This document shows, piece after piece, positions 17,117 to 50,886 of a stretch of DNA of 64,000 nucleotides. This DNA is from Synechococcus sp. HK01-R (GTDB taxonomy: Bacteria > Cyanobacteriota > Cyanobacteriia > PCC-6307 > Cyanobiaceae). Where the stretch lies: NCBI RefSeq assembly GCF_014217855.1, contig NZ_CP059059.1:2046001-2110000 (forward strand). Direction: 5' to 3'. The notes beneath the pieces were generated by a model. That model was not told the origin of the DNA, made no database searches, and worked only from the letters and a program-made list of their open reading frames with translations. Positions within the stretch are counted from its first letter, which is position 1, and every line of letters starts with the position of its first letter. Made by a program: the position numbers and the translations under genes.

Positions 17117-17773
17117 TCAGCCAGCCGTCATGGAGGCGACTTCAGTGGCGAAGTCCACCTGCTCAATCTCGATACCCTCGCCAAGGGTGTAACGGGTGAA
17201 GCGACGCACCTTGACGTTTTCACCAATCTTGCCGGCGGCCTGCTTAACCAGCTCAGCAACAGTGATCGAGCTGTCCTTGATGAAGGGCTGCTCCATCAGA
17301 GCAAGCTCCTTGAGGCGCTTGCCGATACGGCCCTCAACGATCTTCTCCTTCATCGCTTCAGGCTTGCCATCCAGGTCGTCACGACCCATCTCAATCGCCT
17401 TTTCGCGGTCGCGAATCTCGTCAGGGATCTCGTCAGTGGTGACGTATTCGACGTTGGGGCATGCGGCCACCTGCATGGCCACATCGCGGAGCAGCTCCTG
17501 GAACATGTCGCCACGTGCCACAAAGTCGGTCTCGCAGTTCACCTCAACCAGAACACCCACGCGGGCGCCGGTGTGGATGTAGCTGCCGATCGAGCCCTCA
17601 GCGGCGGTACGGCCGGACTTCTTCTCAGCGCTGGCAATGCCCTTCTGCCGCAACCACTCAATGGCCTTATCGCAATCACCATCGGTCGCTGCAAGGGCTT
17701 TCTTGCAATCCATCATTCCCGCGCCGGTCTTATCGCGCAGGTCCTTGACAAGCTTGGCGGAAACGGCAGCCAT
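17117..17773 (-). CDS. tsf: Translation elongation factor Ts
   Basis: Guanine nucleotide exchange factor for EF-Tu. At 218 residues it is the short cyanobacterial form. The N-terminal UBA-like signature [18 protein letters not shown] is intact, as is the core [16 protein letters not shown]. It follows rpsB with an 88-base spacer that contains a long hairpin, the arrangement in which many bacteria tune the S2:EF-Ts ratio. Confidence 0.97.
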
Positions 17774-17861: not shown

Positions 17862-18581
17862 TCAGCCTTCGGCGTCGTCGGCACCGCGCTGATCATTGGC
17901 ACCGTGACGGCCCTCATTGATCGCATCGGCAAGGCGGCTGAGCACGAGCTGAACGGAGCGGACAGCGTCGTCATTGCAAGGAATCGGCACCTCGCACAGA
18001 TCAGGGTCGCAATTGGTGTCCAGCATCGACACCAGAGGAATATCAAGCTTGCGTGCCTCGAGCACAGCATTGGTCTCGCGTCGCTGATCGACAAGAACCA
18101 CAACATCCGGGAGGCGGCGCATGTTCTTCAGACCACCCAGATATTTCTGGAGTCGATCGAGCTCACGACGGAGAACAGCGGCCTCTTTCTTGGGGCGCAT
18201 GGCGATGGCTCCGCTGGATTCCATGCGCTCAAGATCCTTGAGGCGATCAATCCGGGCCTTCATGGTGGTCCAGTTGGTGAGCATGCCGCCCAGCCAGCGC
18301 TGGTTCACATAGGACGCTCCGCAACGGGCGGCTTCGAGAGCCACCACTTCGGACGCCTGCTTTTTAGTGCCGACAAACAGAAACCGCTTGCCGCTGCGTG
18401 CAGCGGAGCGAACCCACTTGTAGGCGTTGTTCATGCAGACAGCGGTCTGCACGAGGTCAATAATGTGCACCCCGTTGCGCGCGCAATAGATGTAGCGCGA
18501 CATCTTGGGGTTCCAGCGACGGGTCTGGTGCCCAAAGTGGGCGCCAGCTTCCATCATCTCAGCGAGAGTGACAACAGCCAT
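17862..18581 (-). CDS. rpsB: 30S ribosomal protein S2
   Basis: Small-subunit protein S2, 239 residues. Diagnostic segments are [20 protein letters not shown] at the N-terminus, [22 protein letters not shown] and the late [19 protein letters not shown]. The ten bases before the ATG contain no Shine-Dalgarno sequence; immediately upstream of them is a highly structured leader, described separately, that may control translation. Confidence 0.97.
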
Positions 18582-18591
18582 GGGAGTTGAG

Positions 18592-18654
18592 GTTTCGGGT
18601 TCGCCTCCACCTGTCAGGGATGGTCATGGGACCAGCACCCGAAACAGACAGGTG
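18592..18654 (-). promoter_or_regulatory. Predicted pseudoknot/switch in the rpsB leader
   Basis: Reading the minus strand 5' to 3': arm a CACCTGTC (18654-18647), arm b GTTTCGGGT (18645-18637), a 21-base loop, arm a' GACAGGTG (18615-18608), seven bases, and arm b' ACCCGAAAC (18600-18592). Both pairs are perfect (8 and 9 bp) and they interleave, so the RNA can form an H-type pseudoknot or two mutually exclusive hairpins. The 21-base loop itself contains a perfect 5-bp hairpin (18634-18630 with 18625-18621). Arm b' ends ten bases before the rpsB ATG. In E. coli, S2 represses its own operon through the leader, so autoregulation is the natural hypothesis. Confidence 0.65.
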
Positions 18655-18694
18655 TGCGGTTTGAAAGGACCAGATGAACCTACCAAAGCAAGGT

Positions 18695-19627
18695 TCAAGC
18701 CATCCCTTGCTGGCGAGCTTCAAGCGCCATAGCCCGCACCCCGATCCGATTGAGGGGTAGCCGGAGCAATTCCATCGCCAGATCGGGCCGCCCGCGGCGA
18801 ATGAGCCAGGCAAGCAGCGGCCTCAGGGAGCGTTCGTTCAGCAGACCGCCAAGGGTGAGCAGCTCCCAAAGCAAGCGATGCAACCAGGTGAACTGAATGA
18901 TGAATCGCACCCGGCGGCTGGGGTGCTTGCGATAAAAAACCAGCCCCATCTTGGCTCGCTCACGCTCCACCCTGATCAAATCGGGGATCTGCTCAAGACG
19001 GAATGCCGGATGCCAGTGATACCCCACCGCCTGAGGGCACTTGACGAGAACAACACCCATCTGGCGGAGTCGCTCACCGAGTTCAAGATCCTCCCAGCCG
19101 TAAAGGCGGAAACCGGTGTCGAAGAGTCCAGACCGTTCCAGGACCTGTCGATCGATCGCCACATTGCCAGTGGCGAAATAGGCCCAGGACAAATCGCGGA
19201 GTTTGTGTCGTTCAGCGGTGGGGCTCTCAAAATTGGCGGTGTTGATCACAGCGCCATAGGTGAAACAAAGCCGATCACCGCGCTGACTCCAGGACTGTTT
19301 CAAGGCCGCCGCGTGGGAGGCCAGAAATGTGGGAGTGACCACAAGATCGCTATCGATGAAAACAATCACGTCACCACGAGCGTGATCGACACCCCGGTTC
19401 CGCCCCTCCGCGGGCCCGCCATGGGCCTGCTCCACCAGACGCACATGCGGAAAGCGACCAGCGTCCCGACGCAGCCAGTCAGGCGTGCCATCACTGGAGC
19501 CGTCATCGACCACCACCACCTCATAGGCCTCGAGGTCGGTAGTCAGGCGCTGATCCTCCAAGGCCAGCAGACACTTCTCCAGGATCGGCCGCCGGTTGTA
19601 GGTGGGGATGACGACGCTGGCAAACAT
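18695..19627 (-). CDS. Family 2 glycosyltransferase
   Basis: A GT-A fold sugar transferase, about 310 residues from the ATG at 19627. The N-terminal half has SVVIPTYNRRPILEKC, VVVDDGSSDGTPDW for nucleotide binding and VIVFIDSDLVV carrying the metal-binding DxD-type motif. The mid-region FATGNVAIDRQVLERSGLFD and GWEDLELGERLRQMG match glycosyltransferases that build surface polysaccharides. The C-terminus is amphipathic rather than clearly membrane-spanning. The acceptor is unknown. The gene stands alone between a terminator and the rpsB leader. Confidence 0.85.
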   Translation of the reverse strand: MFASVVIPTYNRRPILEKCLLALEDQRLTTDLEAYEVVVVDDGSSDGTPDWLRRDAGRFPHVRLVEQAHGGPAEGRNRGVDHARGDVIVFIDSDLVVTPTFLASHAAALKQSWSQRGDRLCFTYGAVINTANFESPTAERHKLRDLSWAYFATGNVAIDRQVLERSGLFDTGFRLYGWEDLELGERLRQMGVVLVKCPQAVGYHWHPAFRLEQIPDLIRVERERAKMGLVFYRKHPSRRVRFIIQFTWLHRLLWELLTLGGLLNERSLRPLLAWLIRRGRPDLAMELLRLPLNRIGVRAMALEARQQGMA

Positions 19628-50473: not shown

Positions 50474-50886
50474 GATTCCTGGGACCATCCTTCACTGTGC
50501 AGGAACGCAGCCACCCGGATCCATCGCACCGGTTTGATACTGGGGGGCAAGGGCACCAAGGCCAGCACCACCTCTAGACCCGTGCTGGACCAAAGGGGAT
50601 TTTCGACCTGCCAGCAGGCCAGCGCCCTGCCCAAGCAACTGCGCTTGCGATAACCGAAAGCATGCAGGCCCCATCCATCCAAACCGGCTGAGCTCCGACC
50701 CTTGACCTCCACCGCCAGTAACCGCCCCTGCGGTGGCGCTCCCTTGGCCATCACAAGATCGATCTCACCCCAGCGGCAACGCCAGCGCTGCGCCAAACAG
50801 CGCCAGCCCTGCTGGCGTAGTAGGCGCAGCGCCCTGCGTTCGGCCCACTGGCCCTGATCCGGAGGCTGCACCGCTCTTGAGCCCAT
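50470..50886 (-). CDS. YraN/UPF0102 family nuclease-like protein
   Basis: A 138-residue protein with a restriction-endonuclease-like fold: EIDLVM and LAVEVKGRSS provide the D...ExK-type acidic and lysine residues after RWRCRWG. The family's function is not settled; a role in DNA processing is suspected. I used ATG at 50886, since the longer frame adds sequence unlike the family. Confidence 0.82.
   Translation of the reverse strand: MGSRAVQPPDQGQWAERRALRLLRQQGWRCLAQRWRCRWGEIDLVMAKGAPPQGRLLAVEVKGRSSAGLDGWGLHAFGYRKRSCLGRALACWQVENPLWSSTGLEVVLALVPLPPSIKPVRWIRVAAFLHSEGWSQES

Follow-up and report, generated by a model that had tools for sequence, protein, structure and literature searches.

A conserved rpsB leader able to form a pseudoknot in Synechococcus sp. 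HK01-R and its relatives: the probable cyanobacterial form of the S2 leader

The gene for ribosomal protein S2, rpsB, lies on the minus strand of the window, by which is meant the whole stretch of 64,000 nucleotides of Synechococcus sp. HK01-R DNA that was analysed. The rpsB product has a single match in its own genome, and its best 80 named relatives, which include Synechococcus, Prochlorococcus, and Cyanobium, are 93-97% identical. The next gene downstream is tsf, whose product we take to be elongation factor Ts (EF-Ts) from its N-terminal motif. The leader element itself occupies 18592-18654, with its mRNA on the minus strand, and the locus contains the following features:

17117..17773, minus strand: tsf, elongation factor Ts (presumed), the next gene downstream of rpsB (open reading frame)
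17862..18581, minus strand: rpsB, ribosomal protein S2, 239 aa (open reading frame; single match in its own genome)
18582..18591, minus strand: ten-base spacer without a Shine-Dalgarno sequence, between the predicted pseudoknot and the ATG
18592..18600, minus strand: 3' strand of the predicted pseudoknot, ACCCGAAAC, at -11 to -19 from the start codon (parse and alignment)
18601..18607, minus strand: loop GAGGCGA between the two 3' strands, starting with GAGG as in E. coli
18608..18615, minus strand: P1 3' strand, GACAGGTG (parse, covariation, and RNAalifold)
18616..18620, minus strand: TCCCT element, flanked by P3 and the P1 3' strand, a possible partner of the GGG in the pseudoknot 5' strand
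18621..18634, minus strand: P3 hairpin, TGGTC-CCAT-GACCA, whose length and sequence differ among genomes
18637..18645, minus strand: 5' strand of the predicted pseudoknot, GTTTCGGGT (J2-3 of the rpsB motif), fully paired (9 positions) in 108 of 109 family leaders
18646..18646, minus strand: one-base linker from P1 to the pseudoknot 5' strand (the site of P2 in E. coli)
18647..18654, minus strand: P1 5' strand, CACCTGTC (RNAalifold on a sequence-only alignment)
18655..18659, minus strand: conserved 5' flank CCGCA directly before P1 (leader comparison)

The element is built from two perfect inverted repeats. The 9-bp repeat joins 18592-18600 (gtttcgggt) with 18637-18645 (acccgaaac), the 8-bp repeat joins 18608-18615 with 18647-18654, and a 5-bp hairpin (tggtc/gacca) spans 18621-18634. 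Along the mRNA the order is CACCTGTC-T-GTTTCGGGT-P3 hairpin-GACAGGTG-GAGGCGA-ACCCGAAAC, then ten bases and the ATG; the full leader reads CCGCA-CACCTGTC-T-GTTTCGGGT-GC-TGGTCCCATGACCA-TCCCT-GACAGGTG-GAGGCGA-ACCCGAAAC-CTCAACTCCC-ATG. A 1-base gap at 18646 separates the two 5' arms, and the final arm ends at 18592, ten bases 5' of the ATG at 18581. The 8-bp repeat corresponds to a stem P1, the 9-bp repeat to a second stem, and the hairpin to P3; together the two repeats can form a pseudoknot. An earlier note on this DNA had described the two perfect repeats, the hairpin, the ten-base distance to the ATG, and the 1-base gap, and all of these are confirmed. The ATG had also been described as having no Shine-Dalgarno sequence, and this lack is real. 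When Shine-Dalgarno-like is defined as GGAG, AGGA, GAGG or GGGG at -18 to -4, no such 4-mer precedes HK01-R rpsB, and tsf shows the same lack in the Prochlorococcus/Synechococcus/Cyanobium family of the window's organism (hereafter, the family). A GGAGG does occur at 18604-18608, 22 bases from the ATG, within the loop between the two 3' arms.

None of 5000 dinucleotide shuffles made from the 113-base leader contained an interleaved pair of perfect 8-bp repeats within about 63 bases. Across the window, the interleaved layout by itself is only moderately rare, and 3 of 20 shuffled 64-kb windows contain at least one. Apart from the rpsB leader, just one site in the window has such an interleaved pair of perfect 8-bp repeats, a GC-rich stretch at 50779-50830; since 3 of the 20 shuffled windows hold such layouts, this one is probably due to chance. 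The same frequency in shuffled windows is what could be said for regarding the rpsB repeats, too, as chance, or as an element that works at the level of DNA, such as an operator or a terminator. Against such an origin stand the 5000 leader shuffles and a promoter and terminator scan of 18560-18860, in which no terminator-like or promoter-like site was seen. It is conservation, not the rarity of the layout, that decides whether the element is real.

Of 121 family genomes, 110 have an rpsB match, as do 144 of 145 genomes in a sample of the class, 130 of these non-family. The leaders compared (n = 165) come from 109 of the 110 family genomes and 56 of the 130 non-family genomes with an rpsB match; the counts leave out L110-L119, which are repeat loci of genomes already included, and G080. 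All 165 leaders parse into the layout, but a best parse always exists, so that a shuffle control is needed. Parser scores have a minimum of 36.4 and a median of 52.1, and 159 of the 165 leaders lie above the maximum of 43.6 reached by 495 shuffled leaders; with the parser's bonus for known motif letters switched off, the number exceeding the best shuffle (37.2) is 117 of 165. Scores below 40 are confined to three leaders (L145, L153, and L163). P1 and the core of the second stem co-occur throughout the parsed leaders, a GGGT/ACCC core is present in 164 of 165 (the parser favours ACCC), and the loop starts with GAGG in 142 (100 of 109 in the family and 42 of 56 outside). The flank before P1 reads CGCA or CACA in most leaders printed, and CACA in E. 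coli. The linker between P1 and the pseudoknot strand is 1 base long in 107 of 109 family leaders and 2 bases long in the other 2, leaving no P2; outside the family it is 0-2 bases in 55 of 56 leaders and 23 bases in one. This last case, L153 (genome G139), is one of those scoring below 40, and its 23-base insert between P1 and the pseudoknot strand is perhaps a P2 hairpin like that of E. coli. Among a further best 80 named relatives (Synechococcus, Prochlorococcus, Cyanobium, Vulcanococcus, and others), 2 loci were too short and 78 of 78 have the layout, all with the arm ACCCGAAAC, a count that is not independent given its overlap with the 109 family genomes.

A covariance model was built from a sequence-only alignment of 71 cyanobacterial leaders, with no E. 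coli sequence included. In the window's own genome it finds a single significant site, the rpsB leader (E 1.9e-16), and the runner-up has an E of 0.27. The best match of this model has E <= 1e-3 in 124 of 145 class genomes, each time just upstream of rpsB as judged by eye; the search includes the training genomes, and at least 71 of the 124 are not among them (39 outside-family rows and 14 family genomes being subtracted). Fifteen class genomes have no match at 0.1, and six have weaker matches only: one beside rpsB (G249, E 0.0014), two about 100 bases upstream of it (G146 and G221), and three located elsewhere (G148, G153, and G161). Among these 21 genomes without a strong match, the parser reads the layout in G123, G135, G146, G148, and G153 with scores of about 41-47, and two of these five leaders do not exceed the best shuffle. 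A further 20 leaders came from other classes of the phylum; they gave one model match at rpsB (L261, E 1.7e-5) and one weak off-site match (L267, E 0.042). One more leader, L265, parses at 45.7, compared with the shuffled cyanobacterial maximum of 43.6, and the remaining leaders either have no such element or give an ambiguous reading. Five leaders from these classes (L258, L264, L267, L269, and L273) have in common agcccgtagtac, about 25 bases before rpsB.

The earlier note had proposed that compensatory changes be sought in the leaders of picocyanobacteria. This was done on parser rows from 39 distinct family leaders and 53 distinct other leaders and, since these rows are picked by a parser that rewards pairing, repeated on a sequence-only MAFFT alignment of 71 leaders (every third family leader, 32, plus 39 others, with loops of <=52 bases). 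On the parser rows, 98.3% of family cells are paired versus a shuffled mean of 93.1%, and 91.1% of other cells versus 79.7%. The family rows contain 5 pairs with two-sided changes, all in P1, a number reached by 65 of 500 shuffles; the cells with two-sided changes number 36 versus 9.9 in shuffles, and no shuffle reaches this value. On the 71-leader alignment RNAalifold finds P1 unaided, with two-sided changes at 7 of 8 pairs. When the pseudoknot is written in, 93.9% of cells pair versus 80.4% in shuffles, and two-sided changes are present at 12 of 17 pairs versus 8.2 in shuffles. A shift of the partners by one column lowers pairing to 51%. P1 accounts for 161 of the 190 cells with a two-sided change.

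The compensatory-change check thus bears out P1, which covaries strongly, and gives a divided answer for the second stem, which hardly varies in the family and does covary outside it. Within the family, 7 of the 9 second-stem pairs never vary and none has two-sided changes, so family data alone cannot separate pairing from a constraint on sequence. Among non-family leaders, 5 of 9 pairs show two-sided changes, and the sequence-only alignment gives that number too. Outside the family, and not within it, the outer pairs co-vary, as in L148, which has TACGGGT with ACCCGTA. All 9 pairs are formed in 108 of 109 family leaders; the outermost is G-C in 109 of 109, whereas a pair of any kind is found at this position in 15 of 56 leaders outside. 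The eighth P1 pair is open in 31 of 109 family leaders. The P3 loop folds with a stem of at least 3 bp in 108 of 109 family leaders, a raw count that carries no shuffle control. The base of P3 covaries in the 79 of 109 family leaders that share one register (65 distinct rows), where three pairs exceed 1000 of 1000 shuffles; in a second register (16 leaders, 14 rows) covariation is seen at one pair only, and 14 leaders were left out of this analysis. Both the compensatory changes and the model matches adjoining rpsB in 124 of 145 genomes argue against the repeats being a product of chance or a DNA-level element. Chance is already refuted by this conservation, and either origin must now be regarded as extremely improbable. 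A conserved, structured rpsB leader that is able to form a pseudoknot is strongly supported.

An element with these properties has a published counterpart. The rpsB motif section of Meyer et al. 2009 (PMC2704228) describes a stem P1 leading to a junction that carries P2 and P3; J2-3 forms a pseudoknot with a 3' extension of P1. The hosts given there are proteobacteria, some Firmicutes, and Cyanobacteria, and P2 is said to be absent or very short in Cyanobacteria. The earlier note's statement that no cyanobacterial counterpart of this form had been described is therefore mistaken, since that section presents a pseudoknotted rpsB motif and names Cyanobacteria. The HK01-R leader shares with the section's description a position upstream of rpsB, P1, the lack of P2, a variable P3, the pseudoknot, and a cyanobacterial host; it lies directly upstream of rpsB, its P1 covaries, and it has the pseudoknot and a variable P3 without P2. 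It differs in that the pseudoknot has 5 bp in the published description and 9 bp in the family, and the section makes no mention of an absent Shine-Dalgarno sequence, a 9-bp stem, or the CC element discussed below. The element had been observed correctly but is not new in kind: it is a cyanobacterial S2 leader. The HK01-R feature is in all likelihood the published rpsB motif in its cyanobacterial form, and probably an S2-dependent brake on the synthesis of S2 and EF-Ts.

The relationship extends to E. coli, the one species from beyond the phylum Cyanobacteria that was compared. In E. coli the order is CACACACGTATC, a P2 hairpin, CTTTGGGGT, P3, GATACGTG, GAGGCATA, and ACCCC. P1 is formed by CACGTATC/GATACGTG, the loop is GAGGCATA, and GGGGT can pair with ACCCC; the pseudoknot core is CGGGT/ACCCG in HK01-R versus GGGGT/ACCCC in E. 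coli. The two leaders thus have the same order of P1, pseudoknot strand, P1', GAGG, and ACCC, while the E. coli 5' UTR of rpsB-tsf differs in having a 20-base P2 insert, a shorter pseudoknot, and AGAGG before the ATG. Because the cyanobacterial 71-leader model matches the E. coli rpsB leader (E 4.8e-6 over 12,021 bases; these E-values are rough), the two are very probably the same element. Rfam holds a related entry, RF00127 t44 (E. coli tff, b4414), which matches the window leader from end to end (22.6 bits, E 0.0091 in 201 bases) and whose alignment places CACAC and GUGGAGGC against it; it differs in being filed as an sRNA, and the HK01-R match of 22.6 bits compares with a gathering score of 44. 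At the gathering score, Rfam has no match in the whole window. A t44 search of 59 class genomes gave no match over the cut-off and a match of any kind at E <= 10 in five, with filters that lose weak matches; the window's own genome is not among the five, and only G122 has its match at rpsB. In E. coli, tff adjoins rpsB upstream, and positions 413-548 of L176 are annotated as "tff, putative small RNA T44" even though they overlap the rpsB leader. In the accessible part of a 2020 survey of new ribosomal leaders (PMC7247131), the terms "uS2" and "cyanobacteria" are absent and rpsB appears once, in the row for L13. A literature search of open-licence papers found no binding or expression data for a cyanobacterial S2 leader.

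The two repeats had been thought to allow either a pseudoknot or a switch between two exclusive hairpins. The evidence favours the pseudoknot: the two stems use different nucleotides and so are not mutually exclusive by base pairing, and two hairpins formed from the two repeats, having no bases in common, were rejected as the main reading. The co-occurrence of P1 and the second-stem core in 165 leaders, again with no shared bases, likewise favours a pseudoknot over exclusive hairpins. The 1-base gap, from which the earlier note had argued that a coaxial fold would be strained and a switch as likely, is real, but the evidence favours the pseudoknot over the two exclusive hairpins and does not bear out an equal likelihood. 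The geometric worry raised by a one-base linker may be softened by the open eighth P1 pair and by the insertion of P3 between the stems. Evaluated apart, P1 with P3 has an energy of -16.7 kcal/mol and the second stem with P3 one of -16.0 kcal/mol. At -21.7 kcal/mol, the most stable nested fold of the window core lies lower; it contains no pseudoknot and pairs the GGG of the 18637-18645 arm locally, with CCU at 18616-18618.

This local pairing raises the possibility of a different two-state switch within the family, one in which the GGG would pair either with ACCC, giving a blocked state, or with the CC(U) beside P1, giving an open state with an extended P3, and S2 would choose between them. 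The five bases that precede the P1 3' strand contain CC in 108 of 109 family leaders versus 13 of 56 outside; when the preceding six bases are considered, CCC is present in 87 of 109 versus 2 of 56. In addition, three or more of the five pseudoknot-core bases have a local partner in the nested minimum-energy fold of 104 of 109 family leaders. Both TCCCT and TACCT seem to permit extension of P3 with a one-base bulge. Local nested pairing is found in 35 of 56 outside leaders as well, however, and the count covers any partner. The GGG is invariant, so that covariation with the CC element cannot show, and the CC element could instead contact protein or form triples. Judged from these predicted folds, the CC element could compete with the pseudoknot and is a real candidate for such a switch, but that the family's leader works in this way is, on balance, rather unlikely.

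The family is set apart from other cyanobacteria by its start sites. A Shine-Dalgarno-like 4-mer precedes rpsB in 0 of 109 family leaders versus 56 of 56 other cyanobacterial leaders; a looser criterion of 3-mers raises the family count to 4 of 109 and leaves the other at 56 of 56. In many other cyanobacteria the 3' strand of the second stem runs into the Shine-Dalgarno sequence (ACCCGAAAGGAG), whereas the same site in the family reads ACCCGAAACC or similar. A further, rather unlikely reading is that in the family an old S2 leader has been rebuilt for initiation without a Shine-Dalgarno sequence: the pseudoknot stem would have grown to a fixed 9 bp, with its 3' strand at the former Shine-Dalgarno site, and with a CC(C) beside P1 able to take up the GGG, a two-state switch would replace masking. 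The tsf starts bear on this. Among those located, none of 30 and none of 77 in the family have a Shine-Dalgarno-like 4-mer, compared with 7 of 11 outside it. Because family tsf also lacks a Shine-Dalgarno sequence, the idea that the pseudoknot replaced masking is weakened and must be considered doubtful. For the same reason, Shine-Dalgarno loss as an adaptation specific to rpsB, which had been a candidate explanation, is weakened. In the examples printed, family tsf starts (L001-L030 and L177-L256) are pyrimidine-rich before the start codon.

A pseudoknot before such a start codon might also aid initiation, either as a docking or standby platform or by bringing the GGAGG of the loop near the start codon. 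As this proposal would have it, 100 of the 109 family leaders have a loop starting with GAGG and none has a normally placed Shine-Dalgarno-like 4-mer. But the GAGG loop start is also present in 42 of 56 outside leaders, all with a normal Shine-Dalgarno sequence, and in E. coli, and family tsf does without a Shine-Dalgarno sequence as well. Its presence outside the family and in E. coli indicates that the loop GAGG, despite its resemblance to a misplaced Shine-Dalgarno sequence, is by sequence comparison a long-standing component of the motif rather than a replacement, and a role for the pseudoknot in aiding initiation seems very unlikely.

There remains repression by S2, which is the preferred reading. 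A review states that E. coli S2 autoregulates through the rpsB 5' UTR, as the earlier note had said, with surplus S2 repressing with the help of S1. The regulation of E. coli rpsB-tsf is reported in that review as tested, whereas for the cyanobacterial counterpart we infer it. By this analogy, the leader is most likely an S2-dependent translational repressor, a function reported for E. coli only, and control of S2 and EF-Ts synthesis by the leader is the best inference. In the proposed process, the P1 strands would pair around the variable P3, and the strand between P1 and P3 would pair just downstream of P1, generating the pseudoknot. S2 in surplus over its 16S rRNA sites, perhaps together with S1, would then bind the leader and stabilise the pseudoknot. 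The stabilised pseudoknot would block initiation, cutting back S2 and, via the shared message, EF-Ts too. The stretch of mRNA from -11 to -19 is occupied by the 30S subunit at initiation. Since the 3' strand of the pseudoknot falls within it, a direct block of initiation is plausible in the HK01-R family. However, the review places the E. coli ribosome binding site outside the operator, so that a direct block lacks an E. coli precedent, and repression in E. coli may take a different route.

Taken together, these comparisons document an E. coli-type S2 leader, pseudoknot included, across the sampled cyanobacteria, where Rfam t44 reaches its cut-off in 0 of 59 genomes. What remains of particular interest is the family's version of this leader, with no Shine-Dalgarno sequence and with a possible competing pairing. 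Given that the E. coli ribosome binding site is reported in the review to lie outside the operator, this version bears on how S2 represses, and in Prochlorococcus and Synechococcus nature provides a test of the way in which an S2 leader can act on a message that has no Shine-Dalgarno sequence.
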